From: Acetobacter sp.
GTDB lineage: Bacteria > Pseudomonadota > Alphaproteobacteria > Acetobacterales > Acetobacteraceae
Length of the DNA stretch: 64,000 bases
Direction: 5' to 3'
Assembly: GCA_017474285.1 (NCBI GenBank)
Contig: JAFVHT010000059.1
Location: forward strand, 1 to 64,000
Shown: positions 52,128 to 64,000 of the stretch, piece after piece
How positions within the stretch are numbered: the first letter of the stretch is position 1
Layout of the letters: each line of letters starts with the position of its first letter
Translations under genes and position numbers: made by a program
The notes under the pieces: model-generated
What the model saw: the letters and a program-made list of their open reading frames with translations, nothing else
Told to the model about the DNA's origin: nothing
Database searches by the model: none

Positions 52128-53264
52128 ATGCGTATTGTTTTTTCCTATATTGCGCAAGTTCATCAAACTCTTCACTCTCTCCCAATCGCTATGGAAATTG
52201 CACAGCGATATCCAGAGATTGAAGTTCATCTTGTGTGTATGACAGAAACACATCTTACTTTTATTAAATCTCTTGCTTCCTATTATCCAAAAGCACGTGT
52301 TCATTTTCATCTCTTATACCTTCCTAAACTTTTACGTACGTGTATTGAACGTTACGGACAAACCCCCTTATCACGCCTTATATGCCTATTTTTGAATAGA
52401 CATTACTTTTCTTCTTTTAAATGTATTGTTGTTACAGAAGAAACCTCTCTTTACCTTCGTTGGTTTGGTGTATGCTCTCCCGCCCTTATTTGGACGATGC
52501 ATGGTGCTGGAGATCGTAATATTGGTTTTTCGCGTGAAGTAAGAGGTTTTGATTATGTTCTTATGGCAGGCCATAAACAAGAGCAACGCTTTTTAGCTAA
52601 TCAAGCTATTCGTCCCGGACATTACTGTACAGGTGTTTATGCGAAATTTGATATTGTCAGCCGTATACACCAAAAGAAAGCCTCCAAAAAATTTTTTGCT
52701 AATAACCGCCCTACTATTCTTTATAACCCCCATTTTGTTACAAGATTTTCCTCATGGCATCGATTTGGTTTTTCTATTCTTCATTATTTTGCGCATCAAA
52801 ATCGTTATAACTTTATTTTTGCCCCACATTACCGTCTTTTTGATCGGCATAAAGACAAAGCACGCCACCTAATTAAAGCTTTTGGCCATTATAGCCACAT
52901 GCTTATTGACCCTGGAAGTTTATATAGCGTTGATATGACATATACCTCTGCTGCCGATCTTTATATAGGTGATGTAAGTTCACAAGTCACAGAGTTTCTA
53001 GTAATACCGAGGCCTTGTCTCTTTCTTAATGCCCATAACGCCCAATGGAAAGGTAATGAAAATTACCTTTTTTGGACTTTAGGCCTTGTACGTGATAGTA
53101 TAGAGTCTCTACAAAACGACATTGAGGAGGCATTTCTTACGCATGATACTTTTGCAAAACATCAAAAACAGTATATACAAGAGACGTTTAGCTTAACAAT
53201 GGGCAAACCCACAGCCTCTATCGGAGCTGATGCTATTGTTCATTTTCTTAATACAGGTCCTTAA
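52128..53264 (+). CDS. CDP-glycerol glycerophosphotransferase-like / surface glycan transferase
   Basis: The 378-residue product has a GT-B-like fold. The second half carries the pattern seen in the CDP-glycerol:glycerophosphotransferase (TagB/TagF) family: ILYNPHF, FAPHYRLF, LIDPGSLYSVDMTYTSAAD, and GDVSSQVTEFLV with the conserved Asp and Ser-Ser. The N-terminal half (IAQVHQTLHSLPIAMEIAQR, IWTMHGAGDR) fits the acceptor domain. No signal peptide is present. As first gene of a sphingolipid locus it may attach a phosphate-linked or sugar head group. Its start directly follows a heptamer array, so expression may vary by repeat number. Confidence 0.6.
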   Translation: MRIVFSYIAQVHQTLHSLPIAMEIAQRYPEIEVHLVCMTETHLTFIKSLASYYPKARVHFHLLYLPKLLRTCIERYGQTPLSRLICLFLNRHYFSSFKCIVVTEETSLYLRWFGVCSPALIWTMHGAGDRNIGFSREVRGFDYVLMAGHKQEQRFLANQAIRPGHYCTGVYAKFDIVSRIHQKKASKKFFANNRPTILYNPHFVTRFSSWHRFGFSILHYFAHQNRYNFIFAPHYRLFDRHKDKARHLIKAFGHYSHMLIDPGSLYSVDMTYTSAADLYIGDVSSQVTEFLVIPRPCLFLNAHNAQWKGNENYLFWTLGLVRDSIESLQNDIEEAFLTHDTFAKHQKQYIQETFSLTMGKPTASIGADAIVHFLNTGP

Positions 53265-53279
53265 ACGAATATTACGCGT

Positions 53280-55025
53280 ATGAATACTACTTTGACATCT
53301 TCAACAGAAACATTATTACAGCCTGTTCCTTCTAATTCCGGGCAACCACGCCGTTATGGCGATTTTACAACTTTTATTGAAGCCCTTGATTATGCTGCCC
53401 AAGGGGCAGCAGGATTTAATATTTATTCTGGTAAAGGCTTACTTCTTGAAAGCCTGCCTTATGGCACTTTACGCACTCAAGCCCTAGAAACAGCACGGCG
53501 TTTGCTTGGTACTGGACTACAGCCCGGGGACCGCATTACTCTTATTGCTGAAAACGACGGTGATTTTGCCCGTATTTTCTTTGCTTGCCAATATGCCGGT
53601 TTGATTGTAGCGCCTCTCCCTTTGCCTATGGCTTTTGGGAGTAAAAATGCTTATCTCGCTATTGTACGGGGTATGATCGAAACGGCACAAGCACGCGCAG
53701 TAATTATTCCTGCTGTTATTGAAGGCTGGACAGAAGAGATTGTAAACGGGTTAGATCTCGCTTTTTTTGGCTCCCCTAAAGAATTGTTGGACCTCCCTAC
53801 GCCTGATATCACTCTGCCAACAATTCAGACGGAGTCTCTCTCTTATATCCAATTTTCTTCTGGTAGTACACGTTTCCCTATGGGAGTTTGTGTGACTCAC
53901 CGTTCTGGTATGGCTAATGTTGCTGCCATTGCACGTGATGGCTTACGCGTTAAAGAAACAGGAGATCGGTGTGTTTCATGGCTACCATTTTACCATGACA
54001 TGGGACTTGTTGGCTTTTTTCTTACTCCTATGACATGCCAACTTACCGTAGACCTTATGCCCACGCGTGAGTTTGCTCGTCGTCCCCATGTTTGGCTTGA
54101 ATTGATTAGCCGAAACCGTGGAACATTAGCTTACGCTCCACCTTTTGGCTATGAATTGTGTACACGTCGCCCTGCATCTCCCGATCTTGATTTGTCTTGT
54201 TGGCGCGTTGCTGGTATTGGCGGTGATATGATTCGCCCGCGTATTTTAACAGATTTTGCGCAGCATTTTCGTGACGTTGGATTTAATCCAAAGGCTTTTG
54301 TTGCCAGTTACGGTATGGCAGAAGCAACATTAGCGATTAGTTTTGCTCCCCTTAATTGCGGTATTGAGACAGATATTGTTGATCTCCCTTATATGGGGCA
54401 ACATGATATTGCACGTGCGCCACAAACACCTGATACGGCACATCGTACTTTTGCCCTTTGTGGTGCTGTACTCCCTCATCATGAGTTAGAAGTACGTGCT
54501 CCTGATGGTACGCGTTTACAAGATTATCACATTGGTACGATCCACGTTCGTGGTCCTAGTTTAATGAGCGGTTATTTTCACCGTGAAGAAGAAACCCGTC
54601 GCGTGCTTGACCATGATGGATGGCTTAATACAGGTGATTTAGGTTATACGCGCGATAATCAAATTGTCGTTACAGGACGCGCCAAAGACCTTATTATTAT
54701 TAACGGGCGCAATATTTGGCCTCAAGATTTAGAGTGGTCTCTTGAAGCCCATATTCCTGGATTGCGAAGCCATGATGTAGCTGTTTTTTCAGTTGAAACA
54801 GAAGAAAACGAAACGATTGTAGCTCTTATTCAATGTCGCTTATCGGAGCAAGCCGCACGAGAAAAATTGCGTGCAGAAGCAGTTGGTCTTTTTCACCGAT
54901 TACACGGTGTTGATGTTTCTGTTGTTCTTGCCCCACCGCATACGTTACCAAGAACGTCTTCTGGAAAACTTATTCGGAGTAAGGCACGTTCTCTTTATCT
55001 TGAGGGTATATTTTCACAAGAATGA
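53280..55025 (+). CDS. Fatty acyl-AMP ligase / acyl-ACP synthetase
   Basis: The 581-residue adenylate-forming enzyme activates a fatty acid as acyl-AMP for loading on a carrier protein. The P-loop is SSGST (193-197), and LPFYHDMGLVG (235-245) is typical of fatty acyl-AMP ligases. LNTGDLGY and GRAKDLIIINGRNIWP lie in the C-terminal part. The next genes are an acyl carrier protein and serine palmitoyltransferase, so the product is probably the acyl-ACP used for sphingoid base synthesis, as in Caulobacter and other alphaproteobacteria. It starts 15 bases after the preceding gene. Confidence 0.85.
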   Translation: MNTTLTSSTETLLQPVPSNSGQPRRYGDFTTFIEALDYAAQGAAGFNIYSGKGLLLESLPYGTLRTQALETARRLLGTGLQPGDRITLIAENDGDFARIFFACQYAGLIVAPLPLPMAFGSKNAYLAIVRGMIETAQARAVIIPAVIEGWTEEIVNGLDLAFFGSPKELLDLPTPDITLPTIQTESLSYIQFSSGSTRFPMGVCVTHRSGMANVAAIARDGLRVKETGDRCVSWLPFYHDMGLVGFFLTPMTCQLTVDLMPTREFARRPHVWLELISRNRGTLAYAPPFGYELCTRRPASPDLDLSCWRVAGIGGDMIRPRILTDFAQHFRDVGFNPKAFVASYGMAEATLAISFAPLNCGIETDIVDLPYMGQHDIARAPQTPDTAHRTFALCGAVLPHHELEVRAPDGTRLQDYHIGTIHVRGPSLMSGYFHREEETRRVLDHDGWLNTGDLGYTRDNQIVVTGRAKDLIIINGRNIWPQDLEWSLEAHIPGLRSHDVAVFSVETEENETIVALIQCRLSEQAAREKLRAEAVGLFHRLHGVDVSVVLAPPHTLPRTSSGKLIRSKARSLYLEGIFSQE

Positions 55026-55152
55026 GTTTGAGAAATTACCTTAGACCTAAAAGCTAGCCAAAGCGTTTTTTATTTCATAAAGTTACTATGCAATAAGCAA
55101 GTCATAAGTAGCTATGTTTTCTTTGATGTTACACAAGAACAAGAGGCTTATC

Positions 55153-55404
55153 ATGAATGAAACTATTGCAGATGTGTCTGCTCTTATTATTCAAAAACTT
55201 TTAGAAAACCCTAAAGTACCACGCGATATTGATGGGAGTTGTAAAATTATGGAGGATCTTGCCTTTGATTCTCTTGCTATTATGAATTTCTTGATGGAAG
55301 TAGAAGATAGTTTAGATGTCTCTGTTCCTTTAGATAAATTAGCAGATATCCGCACTATCAATGATCTTGCAACGTGTATTGTTGCACTTAAAAACCGAAA
55401 GTAA
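55153..55404 (+). CDS. Acyl carrier protein of the sphingolipid locus
   Basis: ATG 55153, with agagg seven bases before, gives 82 residues. The phosphopantetheine serine is in DLAFDSLAIM (S40), which differs from the DSLDTVE motif of fatty acid ACP and marks a specialised carrier. The acidic helix II/III face (EVEDSLDV) is normal. It lies between the acyl-AMP ligase and serine palmitoyltransferase (5-base gap), so it most likely ferries the acyl chain between them. A longer frame from 55114 lacks a ribosome binding site. Confidence 0.9.
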   Translation: MNETIADVSALIIQKLLENPKVPRDIDGSCKIMEDLAFDSLAIMNFLMEVEDSLDVSVPLDKLADIRTINDLATCIVALKNRK

Positions 55405-55409
55405 AAGAA

Positions 55410-56609
55410 ATGGCCTCGCTCTTTTCCAAATATGAGAGTATGGCAAGTGCCCTTGATTCGGTTATTGCTGTTGGTGGACGAAACCCTTTTGCTGTTACGA
55501 TTGAAAAAATACTTTCCTCAACTGTTGGCATTATTGAAGGACGACAAACCCTCCTTTTCGGAACCAACAATTACCTTGGATTAAGCCAATCGCCATGTGC
55601 TATTCAAGCCGCACAAAATGCTGTTTCTACCTACGGCATTGGTACAACAGGTTCACGCATTGCCAATGGCACTTTTTCTTTACACCAGCAACTCGAGCAT
55701 CATATTGCAAATTTTTTTGGTCGACGGGGAGCTATTGTTTTTTCCACAGGATATCAAGCAAATCTTGGCATGATTTCCGCTCTTGCGGGTAAAAATGACT
55801 ATCTTTTCCTTGATGCGGATAGTCATGCAAGCATTTATGATGGTAGCCGCCTAAGTACTGCACAAGTTATTCGTTTTCGCCATAATGACCCTGATGATTT
55901 ATATAAAAGGCTCCGTCGGCTTGATGCCCCAGAACACGCAAAACTCATTGTTGTTGAGGGTATTTACTCTATGACAGGGAATATCGCCCCTGTTCGTGAA
56001 TTTGTTGCCGTTAAAAAAGAAACAGGCGCTGCCCTTCTTGTTGATGAAGCTCATTCCTTTGGTGTGTTAGGCAAGCACGGCCGGGGTGTTGCTGAAGCCG
56101 ATGGTGTTGAACAAGACGTTGATTTTATTGTTGGTACTTTTTCAAAAAGTCTTGGCACAGTTGGGGGATATTGTGTCTCTGATCATCCAGAGCTAGACTT
56201 ACTCAGGCTTAATAGTCGCCCCTATATGTTTACAGCTTCCCTACCGCCTGAAATTATTGCCGCAACGATCGCTACACTCCATGAAATGCAAGCTCACCCA
56301 GAATTGCGTACGCGCCTCATGGATAATGCAGCTCAATTACGCACGGGATTTATAGATCTTGGACTTAATACAAGTAAGCAGGTAAGCCCTATTATTGCCG
56401 TAACCCTCGAAACAACAGAACAGGCTATTCCTATGTGGAATCAGTTGCTAAATCTTGGAGTCTATGTCAATCTTAGTCTCCCACCCGCAACACCTGATTC
56501 CCGCCCGTTATTACGCTGTTCTGTTATGGCAACCCATACAGCAGAACAAATTGATCAAGCAATTGGTATTTTCCGTCAGGCCGCAATAAAAGTTGGCGTT
56601 ATTAGTTAG
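55410..56609 (+). CDS. spt: Serine palmitoyltransferase
   Basis: This 399-residue soluble PLP enzyme of the alpha-oxoamine synthase family condenses serine with an acyl thioester to 3-ketosphinganine, the first step of sphingolipid synthesis. Landmarks are NNYLGLS, H139 (DADSHA), DEAHSFG (212-218) and the PLP lysine K246 in GTFSKSLG. Aminolevulinate synthase and KBL (2-amino-3-ketobutyrate ligase) share the fold, but the neighbouring ACP and acyl-AMP ligase favour SPT. Its stop overlaps the stop of the opposing gene by eight bases. Confidence 0.88.
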   Translation: MASLFSKYESMASALDSVIAVGGRNPFAVTIEKILSSTVGIIEGRQTLLFGTNNYLGLSQSPCAIQAAQNAVSTYGIGTTGSRIANGTFSLHQQLEHHIANFFGRRGAIVFSTGYQANLGMISALAGKNDYLFLDADSHASIYDGSRLSTAQVIRFRHNDPDDLYKRLRRLDAPEHAKLIVVEGIYSMTGNIAPVREFVAVKKETGAALLVDEAHSFGVLGKHGRGVAEADGVEQDVDFIVGTFSKSLGTVGGYCVSDHPELDLLRLNSRPYMFTASLPPEIIAATIATLHEMQAHPELRTRLMDNAAQLRTGFIDLGLNTSKQVSPIIAVTLETTEQAIPMWNQLLNLGVYVNLSLPPATPDSRPLLRCSVMATHTAEQIDQAIGIFRQAAIKVGVIS

Positions 56610-57606
56610 ATTTATTGTTGTAAAAAAGACCACGTTGCCAAAGTGTCCACAAAACGGGAATTGCTGCCAATAGCGGGTGTTTTTCAGCAAAAGGTGTAAC
56701 AACAATTTCTATACCGCTATGCCTGCGTATTTTCCAAGCGGCATAGCGGGCTCCACCTGTAAAAGTATAGGCTGCCTTTAGTAATCTCATGATATTGAGT
56801 GGACGGCCCATTGCTCTCCGTAAACGCCATTGTTGCATGCCTCTTTGCCTTTGAACATCGCTTAAAAGAGGGCTTATAATTCCGTTATGTTGGGTTTGCC
56901 ATGATATTTTTGCTATTTGCCAACAAGGAAGAAGTAAGTTTTCATAACGGTGTTTCTGCCTTTCAACAAGACTACGCGAACGATCGCACTGTTCTACCCG
57001 CAATTCTGCGCCATAAGTTTGCTGGTACAATGCCTCCCAAAAATCGCAAGCATAAGCACCCATTTTTGGACCAAGAAGTGCTCCCCACCCTGCCGCGGTA
57101 ATACACGCCCGAACGATGCAGGCGCCTATATGTTGTAGAGCCTTATCATCTCTTACCCAAACTAATCGACAAGGCTGAGAAAACCGCGCCCATATTGTGG
57201 TATCGTAAGTTTTATGCCCTGTTAACGCCCTTAATTGTGTTAAAGAGAGAATCGCCACTTTTGCACGCAGTGCTTGACCCTGCACTTTATGCTCATGGTA
57301 TTCAACATTAGGTGGAAGAAGCGCATTGCCTAACGCAGAAATCCACGACCGTGGCCAATCGCGTTGCTTAGAAACAATAATATAAAAATCTAAAAGCGTA
57401 TCTGGCTCAACGCCGCCTCGTAAAGCCGACCCATAAAAAAGCACCCCTAAAGGACGCATTGTCCCTAAAATTTGTTGCACAAAAGTTAAAATAAGGGGAG
57501 AAACAGGTGTTGTAAGCTCTTCAAATACACAATACGCTATTTTTTTACAAGCCTGTTGTTTCAAATCACGCTCCAAACCACAAGAAGAAAATAGAGATTT
57601 TTTCAT
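56602..57606 (-). CDS. Nucleotidyltransferase-fold protein, Tam41-like (putative lipid-phosphate cytidylyltransferase)
   Basis: The product has 334 residues. The N-terminal third shows a polymerase-beta-type nucleotidyltransferase pattern: FYGSALRGG (58-65) followed by LLDFYIIV with D73 and then QRDW. This is the order seen in Tam41/Mmp37, the mitochondrial-type CDP-diacylglycerol synthase. The remainder is helical and basic, with a C-terminal hydrophobic segment, so a peripheral membrane protein is likely. It overlaps the lipid kinase gene by four bases (ATGA) and is co-translated. I infer that it could activate the kinase product with CTP; the family assignment is from motif only. Confidence 0.5.
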   Translation of the reverse strand: MKKSLFSSCGLERDLKQQACKKIAYCVFEELTTPVSPLILTFVQQILGTMRPLGVLFYGSALRGGVEPDTLLDFYIIVSKQRDWPRSWISALGNALLPPNVEYHEHKVQGQALRAKVAILSLTQLRALTGHKTYDTTIWARFSQPCRLVWVRDDKALQHIGACIVRACITAAGWGALLGPKMGAYACDFWEALYQQTYGAELRVEQCDRSRSLVERQKHRYENLLLPCWQIAKISWQTQHNGIISPLLSDVQRQRGMQQWRLRRAMGRPLNIMRLLKAAYTFTGGARYAAWKIRRHSGIEIVVTPFAEKHPLLAAIPVLWTLWQRGLFYNNKSN

Positions 57607-58586
57607 ACGCGTAAAAAAGATACTTCAGGCCCAGCACTGATAGTTAAACTTTCCTCCTCTGACAAAGAGATAACCTCACCATCAAGTACAAAAGCATGGT
57701 TGGTATGGATCGTCACTTTGTCAGCGTGTCCGCTTTTATAGGTTGGGGAACGCATAATCCACTCAGGCACATGACCACGTAATAAATGCCAACAAGCCTT
57801 AAGAACTTTTTCTGGTTTTGCACCAACATCTAAATAGCTTAACCCGTCTGTAGAGAGTCCATTTTCACACCAAAACGGCCATACCCCATGAGGTAATTTC
57901 CGTAAAGCTGTACATAAAAATATAAAATGTTCCTGCCCAAGACTAGCCTTACCCTCTATAGCAATACGCGCCCGAATACCATTAAGCCAACTCTGCCGTT
58001 GTTTAGGACTTACAATTTGGCTAATTGTTATCAAAATCGTTACTAAAACCGCCATATCATGCGAATAATGCTTCAAAATAGTTGGACGATGGGCAATATC
58101 CATACTTCGCGTAAAAGCCCCTAAACCACCAAAAAAACCTAATAAATCACGCTCTCTATGTTGCTGACACGATACAAGCAAAGGCCTACGTACACTAATT
58201 TTTGCTTTTCCTAACTCCCACTCTGTAAGGCATTTTTGTAAAAGGTGAATAGCTTTAACGCCACGACTTTTAAAACCAACATCAGCAGCAATTAAATTTG
58301 TGTTCCCAGAAGGTAAAACAGCAATAAGGGGCCAAGAATTTTGTGGCCAAGCAGACGCATAAAGGGCACTTAATACACGGCATACCGTACCATCACCCCC
58401 ATCAATGACAAGACACGGTACAGGGTTACGAGCAAGCATATCAATAAGCCGTTGCAAATCTTCATTTGTTTTCGGAATATATAAAGCACTACCCGGCACA
58501 GTAGCCAGCATGTTCATATAATGCGTATCAGCTTTTAGATTACAAAGACTACGCGGGTTATGAATAACAACAAAACGACCTAACAC
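57603..58586 (-). CDS. Diacylglycerol-kinase-type lipid kinase, candidate ceramide/sphingoid kinase
   Basis: The 327-residue protein has the DAGK catalytic fold: IHNPRS near the start, the nucleotide-binding GGDGTV (63-68), and PSGNTNLIA (92-100), followed by a beta-sandwich domain with FVLDGEVI. A bacterial ceramide kinase of this broad fold is known from the Caulobacter sphingolipid locus. Here the gene sits between serine palmitoyltransferase and a fatty acid hydroxylase, so phosphorylation of a sphingoid base or ceramide is the likely job. The start is GTG 58586, without a strong ribosome binding site. It is translationally coupled to the nucleotidyltransferase gene. Confidence 0.75.
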   Translation of the reverse strand: MLGRFVVIHNPRSLCNLKADTHYMNMLATVPGSALYIPKTNEDLQRLIDMLARNPVPCLVIDGGDGTVCRVLSALYASAWPQNSWPLIAVLPSGNTNLIAADVGFKSRGVKAIHLLQKCLTEWELGKAKISVRRPLLVSCQQHRERDLLGFFGGLGAFTRSMDIAHRPTILKHYSHDMAVLVTILITISQIVSPKQRQSWLNGIRARIAIEGKASLGQEHFIFLCTALRKLPHGVWPFWCENGLSTDGLSYLDVGAKPEKVLKACWHLLRGHVPEWIMRSPTYKSGHADKVTIHTNHAFVLDGEVISLSEEESLTISAGPEVSFLRV

Positions 58587-58619
58587 AAAATGACCCTAAA
58601 TGATAAAAGCTGACACGAT

Positions 58620-58682
58620 CGACAATACGTCTTATATACCTAATACTCTTTCTATATATACCGAAATTTTATAGAATTGTCG
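58620..58682. promoter_or_regulatory. Divergent promoter region with inverted repeat
   Basis: CGACAAT (58620-58626) and ATTGTCG (58676-58682) face each other across 49 A+T-rich bases between the lipid kinase and phosphoesterase starts. They may be paired operator half-sites controlling both directions. Confidence 0.35.
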
Positions 58683-58732
58683 TATAGTGTCATCTATTAC
58701 CCGTTGTTTTTTACTATAAGGAAAATACGTCT

Positions 58733-59626
58733 TTGTCTTTTATTCGAATTGCCCATTTGTCAGATCTTCATCTTCCTTTACCAAAACTCCCTCATTTGCG
58801 AGAGATTCGTTTTAAACGTATCCTTAGTTTGTTATCATGGACATTAAGCAGACGCCATATTCACCAACAGGAACCTCTCCGTGCTATTATGCAAGATATT
58901 CACACAGCACAACCTGATCTTACTGCTATTACAGGAGACTTAACAAATCTTGGCTTATTTTCTGAGTTTTTTCAAGCACGTCAATGGCTAGAAAATCAAG
59001 ATCTTCCACCCACTTTACTTGTTTTAGGCAATCATGATGTTATTATCCGTGAAAATGACACCAACAAAAGAGAACTCTTAAAATCATGGTTACGACACAA
59101 CCCCCAAAACACCCTTATTCCCCTCCTTATTGATAAAGGTATTGCCCTTATCGGAGTTAATACCGCTGTACCTTCTCTCCCATTTTTAGCGACAGGATAT
59201 ATAGGCAAAAATCAACTCGCCCTTTTAGAAACCTGCCTTCAAGAAGCACGTTCTGCTGGTCTTTGCCGTATTGTTTTATTACATCATCCGCCTGTATATC
59301 ACCTTGTTGGTAACAGAAAAGCCCTTACAGATCTTAAAGCCTTACAAGATGTTCTTTGTAAAAACGGTGCAGAACTCGTGCTCCATGGTCATTCTCACCG
59401 CGCAACAATAACCTCCATCCCTAGAACAGACATTCCTGTTATCGGCACCTCATCGGCATCTCATATCCCTAGCTCTTCTCAAAAATCTGCTGGTTGGAAC
59501 TGTATTGATATTCAGAATAATGATAACTCTTGGCGTATAACGATACAAAGACGCGTTTTAATAAACACAAATCATATACAAGACGATGGACAACCTTACA
59601 CCGTTTTTAGACCTCGTCCCTTATAG
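58733..59626 (+). CDS. Calcineurin-like metallophosphoesterase
   Basis: The 297-residue protein has all dimetal motifs: HLSDLHLP near the N-terminus, TGDLTNLG, LGNHDV, LLHHPP and GHSHRA. No signal peptide is evident, so it acts in the cytoplasm or on the inner membrane face. It is not clearly LpxH (length and ends differ). In this locus it may hydrolyse a phosphorylated or nucleotide-linked lipid intermediate. The start is TTG 58733, with aagga about ten bases before. It leads the plus-strand run of locus genes. Confidence 0.75.
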   Translation: MSFIRIAHLSDLHLPLPKLPHLREIRFKRILSLLSWTLSRRHIHQQEPLRAIMQDIHTAQPDLTAITGDLTNLGLFSEFFQARQWLENQDLPPTLLVLGNHDVIIRENDTNKRELLKSWLRHNPQNTLIPLLIDKGIALIGVNTAVPSLPFLATGYIGKNQLALLETCLQEARSAGLCRIVLLHHPPVYHLVGNRKALTDLKALQDVLCKNGAELVLHGHSHRATITSIPRTDIPVIGTSSASHIPSSSQKSAGWNCIDIQNNDNSWRITIQRRVLINTNHIQDDGQPYTVFRPRPL

Positions 59627-59647
59627 ACATTTATATAAACACCTATT

Positions 59648-60874
59648 ATGCCTAAAATATCTTTTTCTATCTCTCTTTTTACAGCATATTTTACCAAGCT
59701 TATACAATTAACAACACTTGATCGTTATCTATTAGTACAACTTGCTTTCCCTTTTTTTGTTTCTCTTTCTGTTGTTATTATTGCTCTTCTTCTTGAACGT
59801 CTCCTCCGCCTGTTTGACATGCTTGTTGCAGGTGGTAATCATTTCACAACTTTTATTAGTTTATTAGCAAGCCTCCTTCCCCATTACCTTGGATTAGCAC
59901 TCCCTGCTTCTTTGTGTATTGCTGTTTTTTCTGTTATCAACCGTATGGGTCACGATGAAGAAATTGATACGATCTACAGCAGTGGTCTTTCACTCTTGCG
60001 TATCACAAAATCTTACATTAGATTAGGTATTGTTTTAGCCTTTGCCACATTTTTACTTTCTGGATTTATACAACCCTACGCACGTTATGATTTTCGTGCT
60101 TTGCTCTATTTTGCACAACACGCGGGTTGGGCACCGAAACTACAATCCCATATGTTTATTAGTGCCCCTTCTGGTCAAAGCATTCTAGCTGATAAAGTAA
60201 CGGAAAATGGTTCCGAACTCTATCATGTTTTTATTCATGATACGCATCATAATCATGATCAAACTATCACCGCACAACGCGGACACATCCGTGTAACAAA
60301 AGATCATGATACAATTCAAGTTGACTTAGATAACGGTGTCATTCTGACCATTCCTGAAAAAGGCTCTCCGTCATTAGCAACATTTAACCACCTTACCCAT
60401 TTTTTAAAACACGCAGCGCGTATAGCCCCTTTCCGCAACCGTGGTCAAGATGAGCGCGAACTGACATTTATTGAACTTGTCACACATAGTCAAACAGGTA
60501 CACCTTTTGTTTCTCATGCTCATGTGCGTTCAGAGATCCATTTCAGACTCGCCCGTAGTTTCATGATGCCTTTTATTCCTATACTTGCAACAGCATTCGC
60601 CATAACCCGCAAACGTCATCGCAACCTTCTTGGTCTTCCCATTGCTTTTATCATCATGATTGCTTCTGACCATCTCCTTCAACTCGGGCACAGCTTCGTC
60701 GCAACAGAACGCGCATCTCCTATTGTCATATGGATCCCGCCTTTTATCTTTGCTTTTATTTCACTTGCTTTATTTCTCAAACGTGCTGAAGTTTTCCTAT
60801 TATTCCGTGCATGGAGACAACAAAAATTGAAGCAAAAACAGAGTTTCTCCTCTCATCATATTTCCTCCCTTTAA
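59648..60874 (+). CDS. lptF: LptF/LptG-type permease (LptF-like)
   Basis: The 408-residue YjgP/YjgQ-family protein has two pairs of membrane segments around a periplasmic beta-jellyroll. The N-terminal LDRYLLVQLAFPFFVSLSVV and ALPASLCIAVFSVINRM, then DEEIDTIYSSGLS, match LptF. The C-terminal membrane pair starts near FMMPFIPILATAF. With LptG it moves LPS from the inner membrane to the periplasmic bridge. This could be the canonical LptF or a paralogue dedicated to the sphingolipid made here; the sequence cannot decide. Confidence 0.82.
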   Translation: MPKISFSISLFTAYFTKLIQLTTLDRYLLVQLAFPFFVSLSVVIIALLLERLLRLFDMLVAGGNHFTTFISLLASLLPHYLGLALPASLCIAVFSVINRMGHDEEIDTIYSSGLSLLRITKSYIRLGIVLAFATFLLSGFIQPYARYDFRALLYFAQHAGWAPKLQSHMFISAPSGQSILADKVTENGSELYHVFIHDTHHNHDQTITAQRGHIRVTKDHDTIQVDLDNGVILTIPEKGSPSLATFNHLTHFLKHAARIAPFRNRGQDERELTFIELVTHSQTGTPFVSHAHVRSEIHFRLARSFMMPFIPILATAFAITRKRHRNLLGLPIAFIIMIASDHLLQLGHSFVATERASPIVIWIPPFIFAFISLALFLKRAEVFLLFRAWRQQKLKQKQSFSSHHISSL

Positions 60875-60892
60875 GCGCTGGCTTTTTTAGCG

Positions 60893-61972
60893 ATGTCACG
60901 CCACGTTGTATTACATTATCTCTCTACCATTCTTGTTACCCGTGTTTTACTTTGTTCTGCCGCTATTACAGGGTTGTTAGAACTTCTCACTTTATTAGAG
61001 CAGACAACACCCATTTTACAGCGACATTTAGGGATTTTGGGTATTGTTTATTATGCGACACTTACGCTCCCTTCCCTTATCTCTAATGCCTTACCCGCAG
61101 GCATGTTGATTGGTAGTTTGTTTATGCTCACACAAATGACCTCTAGCAACGAAATTCCAACTCTACGGGCAGCGGGTATGTCTCCCCTTACTCTTTACAA
61201 ATATCTTATTCCAGCCACGCTTATGATCGGATTTTTTGGAATACTTCTTGAAGATCAAATTGTTCCACGTTCAGAACTTGCCTATCATACATGGTGGAAC
61301 AAAACAGACCCTTTTTCCGAGAAAAACAGCCACGCTTTTTGGATACAAAATGGGACACAAATTATCCATATTGGTTCCCTCTCTGATGGCGGTCAAACGC
61401 TCTCTAACCTTGATATTTACGATCGCGACCTTCTCACGGGACTCCTTATTCGAACGATTCATGCCAATACAGCCCATTATTCCGATACCCATAGCTGGGA
61501 ACTGCAAAAGACTTACCGCATTCAAATCGAAAAACAACTTCTGATCCATACTCTCTTACAAGACAAAACACGGTGGTTCATACGACTTACACCACATGAT
61601 TTTATTTGCCTTTCTACAGAGAACCCATCCCTTTCAACATGGACTATTTTAACCATGTTGTACGGTCATTTTCCCTCAACATCTCCCCCTGCTTTTTTAG
61701 AAACAAGCGTTTTAGAACGATTCTTTCTACCAATATTCCTTTGTGTCCTTGTTTTACTCACAATACCTGTTATTTATATCCCACCGCGCGCTGGTTTTCA
61801 AAATTGGACACCTATACGCTGCCTTGCTATAGGATTAGCCCTTATTGTCTCTCAAGGATTACTCCGCGCCTTAGGCAATGCAGGAATTCTTCCACCACTA
61901 GTTGCAACTCTTTCAGGATTAGTTATTTTTATGTTATGGGTGTTAAATACGCTTTTAAGGAATGAACTATGA
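60893..61972 (+). CDS. lptG: LptF/LptG-type permease (LptG-like)
   Basis: The 359-residue partner of the preceding gene starts 19 bases after it. The same architecture is visible: MSRHVVLHYLSTILVTRVLL, ALPAGMLIGSLFMLTQM, then SSNEIPTLRAAGMS, a periplasmic domain, and three C-terminal membrane segments (LPIFLCVLVLLTIPVIY onward). Its stop overlaps the hydroxylase start (ATGA), so permease and lipid-modifying genes are co-translated. That is unusual for a housekeeping lptFG pair and suggests a link with the sphingolipid product. Confidence 0.82.
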   Translation: MSRHVVLHYLSTILVTRVLLCSAAITGLLELLTLLEQTTPILQRHLGILGIVYYATLTLPSLISNALPAGMLIGSLFMLTQMTSSNEIPTLRAAGMSPLTLYKYLIPATLMIGFFGILLEDQIVPRSELAYHTWWNKTDPFSEKNSHAFWIQNGTQIIHIGSLSDGGQTLSNLDIYDRDLLTGLLIRTIHANTAHYSDTHSWELQKTYRIQIEKQLLIHTLLQDKTRWFIRLTPHDFICLSTENPSLSTWTILTMLYGHFPSTSPPAFLETSVLERFFLPIFLCVLVLLTIPVIYIPPRAGFQNWTPIRCLAIGLALIVSQGLLRALGNAGILPPLVATLSGLVIFMLWVLNTLLRNEL

Positions 61973-62754
61973 TAGGTCACACGCTTCAAAACCATTCATT
62001 AAAAACAGGTCGCAGTTTCGACCTTGGAAAGATGAATCTCTCACAACTTTGGGTGGCTTATCTTACCCATTCCACGATTTTACTTTATTTCGCCCTTATC
62101 GTTGCGAGCTTTACAGGCGTTTTTCTTTATTTTTCAGGATGGCTTGCAACACTCTTTGCTATAGCATCGGTTATGTTCGTTTATCCGTTAGCTTGGTACC
62201 TCCTCCACCGTTATGTGCTCCATGGTCATTTACTCTATAAAAACCCATGGACCGCCGCTTTATGGAAGCGCATTCACTTCGATCATCATCAAGACCCTCA
62301 TCTTCTTGATGTGCTTTTTGGTTCACCTGTTACAACAATACCAACCATTATCGTGATTACTGCCCCTATTGGTTACCTTATTGGGAGTTTTGGGGGAGCC
62401 TGTGCTAGCATTGGTACAGGACTGGTTATCACTTGTATTTATGAATTTTTCCATTGTATCCAACACCTTAACTATAAACCACGTTCGCGCTGGATCCAGC
62501 GAATGAAAGCCCTTCATCTTTTACACCATTTTCATAATGAAGATGTTAATCATGGTATTACAAGCTTTATCATAGACCGATTTTTTGGCACCTATTGTGT
62601 CGATGCTAAAGCGTGTCCACGTAGTCCAACTGTTTTTAATCTTGGATATGATCTTAAAGCCGCAGAACGTTACCCATGGGTTATGAAACTCACAGGTTCT
62701 CCCCCACGTGATCGCCCTGATGGCGCACGTTCAGATACATCGCGGTCAGTATGA
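61969..62754 (+). CDS. Fatty acid hydroxylase / sterol desaturase family membrane protein
   Basis: The 261-residue protein has membrane segments near 35-75 and 120-160, and the histidine clusters of the diiron hydroxylase superfamily: HRYVLH (80-85), HFDHH (103-107), FHCIQH (161-166), LHLLHHFH (182-189) and NHG (194-196). In a sphingolipid locus it probably adds a hydroxyl to the fatty acyl chain (2-position) or the sphingoid base. Both types are known in the family. It overlaps lptG and the next gene by four bases each. Confidence 0.85.
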   Translation: MIGHTLQNHSLKTGRSFDLGKMNLSQLWVAYLTHSTILLYFALIVASFTGVFLYFSGWLATLFAIASVMFVYPLAWYLLHRYVLHGHLLYKNPWTAALWKRIHFDHHQDPHLLDVLFGSPVTTIPTIIVITAPIGYLIGSFGGACASIGTGLVITCIYEFFHCIQHLNYKPRSRWIQRMKALHLLHHFHNEDVNHGITSFIIDRFFGTYCVDAKACPRSPTVFNLGYDLKAAERYPWVMKLTGSPPRDRPDGARSDTSRSV

Positions 62755-63551
62755 ACGCCCCATTACCACAACATCATTCCTTAAAGACTCTTACAGCTTT
62801 TATCTTGGCAGGCGAACGCCCTAACGTGATTGACCCTGTTGCTGCTGCAGGAGGTGTTGCGCTTAAAGCGCTTCTCCCGATTGGTGGAGTTCCTATGCTA
62901 TTACGCGTTATTACAAGCCTTCGCGCAGTACCTGCTATTGGTCAGATTGTTGTTTGTGCTTCACGCCTAGAATTTTTAGCAAAAATTATTCCTGAAGACG
63001 TTCTCCTTATTCCAGCACAAGACGATGGCCCTAGTGCGAGTGTTTTAGCTGGACTTGAACGTTTTGGAACCCCTTTGCTTGTGACAACAGCCGATAATGC
63101 TTTACTCCAGCCAGAATGGATTACAGAGTTTTTAGAGGCTCTTACCTCTAATAGTGATGTCGCCGCTGCTGTTGCCTTAGAAGCAGACATTCTTAGAGAT
63201 GTCCCTCATACAAAACGTACCTACATTCGCCTTACAGATATGGTTTTTTCAGGCTGTAACCTTTTCTTGTTTAGAACGCCTGTTTCTACCCAAGTTGTCG
63301 ATTTATGGCGGCATGTCGAAAAAAATCGCAAACACCCGTTTCGTATAGCGTGGACGCTCGGTCCCATGGTAATTTTACGTGCTTTATTAGGTTTGTTAAG
63401 TTCCCAAGCACTTTATAAACATCTTTTTGCACGAACAGGCGCAAGAGCTGAACTTATCCCCCTTTCTGACGGTCGTGCGGCTGTTGATATTGATAAACCT
63501 GCTGATATTATGTTAGCAGAACAAATTATAACCACTCAATCTCAAAAATAA
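62751..63551 (+). CDS. MobA-like nucleotidyltransferase
   Basis: The 266-residue GT-A-like NTP transferase has the N-terminal signature ILAGERPN, then DPVA, KALLPIGGVPML and the metal-binding TADNALL. True MobA begins LAGGxSxRMG, so the substrate differs. Proteins of this subgroup occur next to sphingolipid genes in other alphaproteobacteria and may activate a head-group precursor. It overlaps the hydroxylase gene and is followed by a glycosyltransferase. Confidence 0.75.
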   Translation: MNAPLPQHHSLKTLTAFILAGERPNVIDPVAAAGGVALKALLPIGGVPMLLRVITSLRAVPAIGQIVVCASRLEFLAKIIPEDVLLIPAQDDGPSASVLAGLERFGTPLLVTTADNALLQPEWITEFLEALTSNSDVAAAVALEADILRDVPHTKRTYIRLTDMVFSGCNLFLFRTPVSTQVVDLWRHVEKNRKHPFRIAWTLGPMVILRALLGLLSSQALYKHLFARTGARAELIPLSDGRAAVDIDKPADIMLAEQIITTQSQK

Positions 63552-63569
63552 AATAATAGACAAAAATTT

Positions 63570-64000
63570 ATGCGGATCGCTTATATTATTAACTCTGCAG
63601 GTTTCGGAGGTGCTGAGCTTCCTACTCCTGCTATCTGCCGTGTTTTACAAGAAGCAGGGCATGAGGTTATCGTTTTCGTCCTCTGTAAAGGAGACGGTCT
63701 TTCACTACCCTTATGGAAAAAATCTAAACTTAACGTTTTCATACGACACGGAAATCGCAAAGATCATCTTGCCGCTCTCTTCTGGCTCTTCCAACATTTC
63801 CAAACATGGAAGCCAGATATTATTTGGACATCCCTCGTACGAAGTACCTTACTAGGGCAAATCATCGGACAAAAACTCAACATCCCCGTTGTCAGCTGGC
63901 GAAATACTGTTAAACCTAAACTTATCAACCATATACTTCTCCGCTTATGTCATTCTGCCTCATGTTTATGGATTGGGGATTCACAGGCGACAACAAAATA
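63570..64000 (+). CDS. Glycosyltransferase (GT4-like), N-terminal part, cut by window edge
   Basis: ATG 63570 opens a frame that runs off the right edge (143 codons seen). The N-terminus MRIAYIINSAGFGGAE and the following GHEVIVFVL, PDIIWTSLVRS and IPVVSWRNT fit the acceptor domain of GT4-family transferases, where GGAE is common. In this locus the likely acceptor is a sphingolipid, or a sugar-lipid head group. The donor domain lies outside the window. Confidence 0.75.
   Translation, partial: MRIAYIINSAGFGGAELPTPAICRVLQEAGHEVIVFVLCKGDGLSLPLWKKSKLNVFIRHGNRKDHLAALFWLFQHFQTWKPDIIWTSLVRSTLLGQIIGQKLNIPVVSWRNTVKPKLINHILLRLCHSASCLWIGDSQATTK

Follow-up and report, generated by a model that had tools for sequence, protein, structure and literature searches.

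In Caulobacter crescentus, the locus for synthesis and export of the acidic phosphosphingolipids CPG (ceramide phosphoglycerate) and CPG2 (ceramide diphosphoglycerate) spans CC_1168–CC_1152 and includes cpgA–cpgD (PMC11324152). CpgA and CpgD add a second phosphoglycerate and both are needed for CPG2; CC_1153 and CC_1158 also take part in CPG2 formation, and loss of CC_1153 abolishes this lipid (PMC11324152). Loss of cpgD eliminates CPG2 while CPG is kept (PMC12275187). The mechanism of the CpgC step, which leads from ceramide-1-phosphate to CPG, has been described as unidentified (PMC12275187, PMC13228409), and CerR appears to be periplasmic, in a compartment without free NADH (PMC11087976). 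Zymomonas mobilis has genes for CPG and not for CPG2 (PMC11324152), and Acetobacter has already been reported as a ceramide producer (PMC8268314, PMC10626005). Here we analyse a 64,000-nucleotide stretch of an Acetobacter genome (the window; positions 1–64,000 of contig JAFVHT010000059.1), in which 12 genes occupy positions 52128–64000 (Table 1). The first-pass annotation of this DNA had seen there a compact locus for sphingolipid synthesis, decoration and export, and that reading proves right: the genes it named are all present as long open reading frames, packed with gaps of −8 to +146 nt. We think it likely that the locus is an acetic-acid-bacterial variant of the known CPG-type phosphosphingolipid locus.

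Comparison with the Caulobacter locus

The aasR–acpR–spt ceramide core of the Caulobacter-type CPG locus is present. AasR scores 848.8 bits against the NF006624 fatty acyl-AMP ligase subfamily (cut-off 600), AcpR has a PP-binding domain with a DSL motif, and Spt scores 622.8 bits against the NCBIfam serine palmitoyltransferase equivalog NF047599 (cut-off 500). Spt also carries the pyridoxal phosphate lysine motif TFSKS and was found in all 18 genomes of the genus searched; its closest named relative, at 87% identity, belongs to an Acetobacter metagenome-assembled genome from goat abomasum. The equivalog score, together with best PDB relatives that are serine palmitoyltransferases (2x8u, E 4e-132), rules out another α-oxoamine synthase, a possibility that the first-pass annotation had raised. 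Its proposed core of acyl-AMP ligase, carrier protein and serine palmitoyltransferase is thereby borne out, as is its remark that such a core is known in alphaproteobacteria, Caulobacter being the case in point (PMC11324152). Pfam domains (Table 1) likewise confirm the lipid kinase, the phosphoesterase, the two LptF/G permeases, the di-iron hydroxylase, the MobA-like enzyme and the glycosyltransferase.

Nine genes lie in the same order and orientation as in Caulobacter CC_1165–CC_1153, namely aasR, acpR, spt, cpgC, cpgB, the phosphoesterase gene, lptF2, lptG2 and the counterpart of CC_1153. The lipid kinase corresponds to CC_1160, the Tam41-like protein to CC_1161, the phosphoesterase to CC_1158, LptF2 to CC_1156, LptG2 to CC_1155 and the MobA-like protein to CC_1153, these CC numbers being assigned by gene order and by homology through Caulobacteraceae loci, chiefly that of a Phenylobacterium (L049), rather than by direct comparison with C. 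crescentus proteins. The Phenylobacterium locus reproduces the published CC_1166–CC_1152 gene by gene (order from PMC11324152): flippase, aasR, cerR, acpR, spt, cpgC (−), cpgB (−), cpgA (−), phosphoesterase, HIT, lptF2, lptG2, cerS, MobA-like and cpgD (−). Gene calls in GC-rich loci were weighted by codon usage. Homology and synteny with the Caulobacteraceae loci identify cpgB and cpgC, the genes needed for CPG.

Unlike the Caulobacter locus, the Acetobacter window lacks cerR, cpgA, the HIT gene and cpgD; cerS is elsewhere in the genome and a hydroxylase gene occupies the slot that cerS holds in Caulobacteraceae, while genes for a TagF-like protein and a family 4 glycosyltransferase (GT4) stand at the two ends. 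These differences are shared by other acetic acid bacteria (AAB), though only patchily for the two terminal genes. The block of cpgC, cpgB, phosphoesterase, lptF2 and lptG2 occurs in 20 AAB loci and in most of 32 others; among the 20 AAB loci with cpgB and cpgC, cerR, cpgA, HIT, cerS and cpgD were each found in the cluster in none and the hydroxylase in all 20, as against cerR in 28, cpgA in 26, HIT in 21, cerS in 26, cpgD in 15 and the hydroxylase in eight of the 32, counts that are lower limits because some flanks are incomplete. Synteny in relatives, which the first-pass annotation had proposed as a check, extends throughout the genus and far beyond it, so the arrangement is not due to chance. 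The suggestion that the set of head-group and transport genes might be undescribed must be narrowed: most of them are the Caulobacter CPG2 genes, but the AAB version, which lacks CerR, CpgA and CpgD, carries an extra hydroxylase and in this strain has the TagF-like and GT4 genes as well, may be undescribed.

A second type of acpR–spt locus was also seen (L044, L047, L054, L067 and similar), with an LptF/G-like pair, a CpgD-like protein, a distant CpgA-like protein, glycosyltransferases and often a flippase. These loci have no CpgB or CpgC within their flanks and perhaps form a separate glycosphingolipid branch.

The CpgC step

Since Pfam and PDB sequence searches with CpgC gave nothing useful, its structure was used. 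The AlphaFold model (pLDDT 92.2, pTM 0.90), searched with Foldseek against PDB, has as its top match, along its full length, 7ecd, Tam41 with CTP-Mg (E 6.8e-8, probability 1.00, TMt 0.59, 282 columns); aminoglycoside nucleotidyltransferases follow at TM about 0.26–0.33. The earlier call of a Tam41-like nucleotidyltransferase therefore stands at the level of the fold and lacks Pfam support. In a 42-member alignment, Y58-G59, D73, K116, R141, Q144 and P145 are invariant, residues that we take to fit the Tam41 pattern, as a lead rather than a test. Tam41, the mitochondrial and bacterial CDP-diacylglycerol synthase, uses phosphatidic acid and CTP to make CDP-diacylglycerol. By analogy with that reaction, the simplest reading of the fold is that CpgC acts on ceramide-1-phosphate in place of phosphatidic acid; the model thus suggests a CTP:ceramide-1-phosphate cytidylyltransferase making CDP-ceramide.

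CpgC could instead be some other nucleotidyl or phosphoglycerate transferase that shares the fold and is no lipid cytidylyltransferase, as its want of Pfam similarity to Tam41 and the weak matches to other nucleotidyltransferases would allow. We regard this as possible but somewhat doubtful, because the E-value of Tam41 is four orders of magnitude ahead of that of the next matches, with TMt 0.59 over its 282 columns against about 0.33, and because cpgC adjoins the ceramide kinase gene in every locus examined.

The hydroxylase and the terminal genes

By sequence, the PDB relatives of the hydroxylase are yeast SCS7 (E 2.7e-5), a ceramide fatty acid hydroxylase. In Caulobacter, by contrast, the hydroxylase is a DesA-type enzyme encoded away from the locus (CC_0202; PMC11324152).

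The TagF-like protein had been described as resembling CDP-glycerol transferases, a description in keeping with a profile match to the TagF-like capsule polymerase Cps3D (E 4.5e-4) and with a weak match to Glyphos_transf, but the latter, at 16 bits, falls under the gathering score of 22.1. Its AlphaFold model (pLDDT 91) has a GT-B fold for which Foldseek lists UDP-GlcNAc 2-epimerases first; TagF 3l7l is close (E 4.9e-10, TM about 0.6) and the epimerases score as well. H125 and H234 are invariant. Both the TagF-like and the GT4 gene are found in L011–L013, L023, L030, L031, L065, L068 and L070, which are AAB and Nevskia-type loci; this patchy distribution marks them as accessory.

The position of these two genes at both ends of the locus, their co-occurrence in several loci, and the TagF-like fold with its invariant histidines could mean, in line with the first-pass annotation, that synthesis ends in a new glycosylated or polyol-phosphate sphingolipid, for which a CPG-like lipid is just an intermediate. 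This seems to us rather unlikely: many Acetobacter loci have the core and neither gene, and the acceptor could also be lipopolysaccharide (LPS) or capsule.

N-acylation and ketoreduction

The first-pass annotation had proposed looking for the N-acyltransferase and the ketoreductase past position 64000. They are not there; the locus closes at the GT4 gene, and the housekeeping genes glmU and glmS come next. A whole-genome search placed cerS on another contig (C26:210-1334, 318 bits), with a gene for a short-chain dehydrogenase/reductase (SDR) divergent beside it (C26:1473-2273). CerS occurs in all 13 Acetobacter genomes and in six other AAB genomes, its AAB members forming a single clade on a long branch (0.93, 100/100), and in all 19 the divergent SDR adjoins it with gaps of 73–572 nt, the other neighbours varying. 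The catalytic residues S148, Y161 and K165 of the SDR are invariant. True CerR was found in none of the 19, where the best matches reach only 85–141 bits and look like the NDUFA9-type paralogs that non-AAB carry too, as against nine of ten non-AAB genomes (385–487 bits), the tenth being cut at a contig end. In the genome that holds the window, the best CerR-like match is an NDUFA9-like protein (86 bits, C26:14816), which we do not count as CerR. From this phylogenetic profile and the constant adjacency we infer that the SDR is the best candidate ketoreductase, a putative non-orthologous replacement of CerR. The SDR–CerS pairing is probably one evolutionary event, so that the 19 genomes are not independent.

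Alternatively, the SDR beside CerS could be unrelated to ketoreduction, with an NDUFA9-like or FabG-type enzyme encoded elsewhere doing this step; the CerR-like protein at C26:14816 and the many SDRs of relatives speak for this. We consider it unlikely, because the CerR-like protein scores in the range of the paralogs that accompany true CerR in non-AAB and because the SDR–CerS adjacency has lasted while other neighbours changed. By role, the candidate SDR compares with the Bacteroides 3-ketosphinganine reductase BT_0972 (PMC9278070), likewise a ketoreductase distinct from CerR in a bacterium that makes sphingolipids, although from another lineage and another pathway. A literature search, made mostly without subscription papers, found no account of the SDR–CerS pair in AAB, a result that argues only weakly for novelty. 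A second CerS of the AAB type in Gluconacetobacter diazotrophicus (L116, G033:C1:2261222-2262364) has no SDR beside it.

Absence of CpgA and CpgD

CpgA is a CDP-alcohol transferase and CpgD a CDP-glycerate synthase. Whole-genome profile searches found no CpgA ortholog in the genome studied here (best 25 bits) or in 18 further AAB genomes (12 Acetobacter and six others); the same profile gave orthologs at 545–605 bits in five of ten non-AAB genomes. AAB are not alone in this: CpgA is also missing from three Acidisoma, one Azospirillum and one fragmentary genome. CpgD likewise has no ortholog in this genome (best 35 bits over 55 residues), and among the 12 other Acetobacter only G002 has a relative, at 159 bits. 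In that genome the CpgD-like cytidylyltransferase gene directly adjoins a short CDP-alcohol-transferase match of 27 bits (G002:C9:17828-18906), possibly as part of an unrelated polyol-phosphate pathway.

Because cpgA and cpgD are missing, CPG2 is not an expected product in Acetobacter of this type, and a plain Caulobacter CPG2 pathway, to which the nine syntenic genes with the CPG2 participants CC_1153 and CC_1158 might point, is highly improbable. A mono-phosphoglycerate product may still be made, since loss of cpgD in Caulobacter keeps CPG. Z. mobilis offers a parallel in that cpgA is missing there too and a mono-phosphoglycerate lipid alone is predicted, but its genes are spread over ten regions whereas those of Acetobacter form a single compact locus.

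In the MobA-like protein the GGxGxR loop usual in NTP transferases is missing, the sequence there being LAGERPNVIDPVAAAGGVALKALLP. This protein was rejected as a candidate for CpgD, which Caulobacteraceae encode in an NTP_transferase gene of its own, following the MobA-like gene. Since CC_1153 is retained in AAB, Acidisoma and an Azospirillum, all without CpgA, it must have a role that extends past the CPG2 step.

Proposed pathway

Taken as a whole, we consider the following route probable. AasR would load a fatty acid onto AcpR, and Spt would condense it with serine to 3-ketosphinganine, as homology predicts. CerS would then N-acylate, the adjacent SDR would reduce the keto group in place of the lost CerR, and the SCS7-like di-iron enzyme may 2-hydroxylate the N-acyl chain. 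CpgB, as an ortholog of a tested enzyme, would phosphorylate the ceramide, and CpgC would convert ceramide-1-phosphate and CTP to CDP-ceramide, which would go on to carry mono-phosphoglycerate or another single head group, with no CPG2 predicted. Strains having the TagF-like and GT4 proteins, this one included, might add polyol-phosphate and sugar, a speculative step. LptF2 and LptG2 would carry the finished lipid toward the outer membrane, in parallel with the usual Lpt route for LPS.

The genome has four LptF/LptG genes in two pairs, and the pair on contig C34 scores higher, which makes the window pair the additional one, an arrangement also known from Caulobacter. With LpxC encoded on contig C49 and a separate LptF/G pair present, the sphingolipid probably supplements LPS; the idea that it replaces LPS finds no support.

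Several points weigh against this reading. The lipid products are predictions from the genes. The superposition of CpgC on Tam41 is moderate (rmsd 5.0 at the TMt given above), none of the 42 CpgC members matches Pfam Tam41 at E ≤ 1, and no enzyme that places glycerate or another alcohol on CDP-ceramide was identified. The SDR adjacency in AAB may trace to a single ancestral event, and steroid and FabG-type reductases are among the enzymes that the SDR profile resembles. Finally, CC_1153 is retained, yet in Caulobacter it is needed for a lipid not expected here.

More tentatively, and with somewhat less than even confidence, we suggest that bacterial phosphosphingolipids are made via CDP-ceramide, with CpgC as a Tam41-like CTP:ceramide-1-phosphate cytidylyltransferase in parallel to the CDP-diacylglycerol pathway, and that in AAB a cytoplasmic SDR has replaced periplasmic CerR. 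For the CpgC step, the Tam41-fold model supplies a defined reaction that can be assayed, and a clade that seems to have swapped CerR for an SDR next to CerS forms a natural counterpart to Caulobacter, whose CerR appears periplasmic. A mostly known locus with a clade-specific variant thus yields two testable predictions in enzymology, for CpgC and for the SDR, and predicts which sphingolipids food-associated acetic acid bacteria should and should not make.

Gene organization and genomic context

The genes fall into three units: TagF-like to spt on the plus strand (52128–56609); cpgB and cpgC on the minus strand (58586–56602), convergent with spt and overlapping it by 8 nt; and the phosphoesterase gene to GT4 on the plus strand, from 58733. 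Within the units, most junctions measure no more than about 20 nt or overlap, an arrangement suggestive of operons. AcpR probably starts at 55153, giving 83 residues as in relatives, rather than at 55114.

Table 1. Genes of the Acetobacter sphingolipid locus, with positions in the window.
Gene product	Position	Strand	Evidence
TagF/CDP-glycerol-glycerophosphotransferase-like GT-B protein (P0001), 378 aa, accessory	52128..53264	+	weak Pfam, profile, fold
AasR, fatty acyl-AMP ligase / acyl-ACP synthetase (CC_1165 type)	53280..55025	+	NF006624, synteny
AcpR, dedicated acyl carrier protein	55114..55404 (likely start 55153)	+	PP-binding, DSL motif, synteny
Spt, serine palmitoyltransferase	55410..56609	+	NF047599 equivalog, PDB relatives, TFSKS
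CpgC (CC_1161 type), Tam41-fold nucleotidyltransferase	56602..57606	-	synteny, 42-member alignment, AlphaFold, Foldseek
CpgB (CC_1160 type), ceramide kinase, DAGK family	57603..58586	-	DAGK_cat, GGDG from residue 63, synteny
Calcineurin-like phosphoesterase (CC_1158 type by position)	58733..59626	+	Metallophos, synteny
LptF2, second LptF-type permease	59648..60874	+	PF03739; canonical pair on contig C34
LptG2, second LptG-type permease	60893..61972	+	PF03739
Di-iron fatty acid hydroxylase, SCS7-like	61969..62754	+	FA_hydroxylase, PDB SCS7
MobA-like NTP transferase (P0011), CC_1153 type, not CpgD	62751..63551	+	NTP_transf_3, synteny
GT4 glycosyltransferase, accessory	63570..64000, on to contig position 64661	+	Glycos_transf_1

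The genome that holds the window (G000) is reduced, at 1.73 Mb and 99.84% completeness, and is one of two (with G015) among the Acetobacter genomes compared that measure 1.5–1.7 Mb, about half the usual size. That the full 12-gene locus is kept in at least the 1.73 Mb genome hints that selection maintains it in this organism's niche. The sphingolipid locus of Gluconacetobacter diazotrophicus and of Commensalibacter is preceded by a divergently oriented rRNA operon (L022:602-2405 and L024:1475-3181, minus strand). Many draft Acetobacter contigs stop at this spot, where the window carries nrdB instead, and the rRNA operon probably explains the loss of the upstream flank in those drafts.

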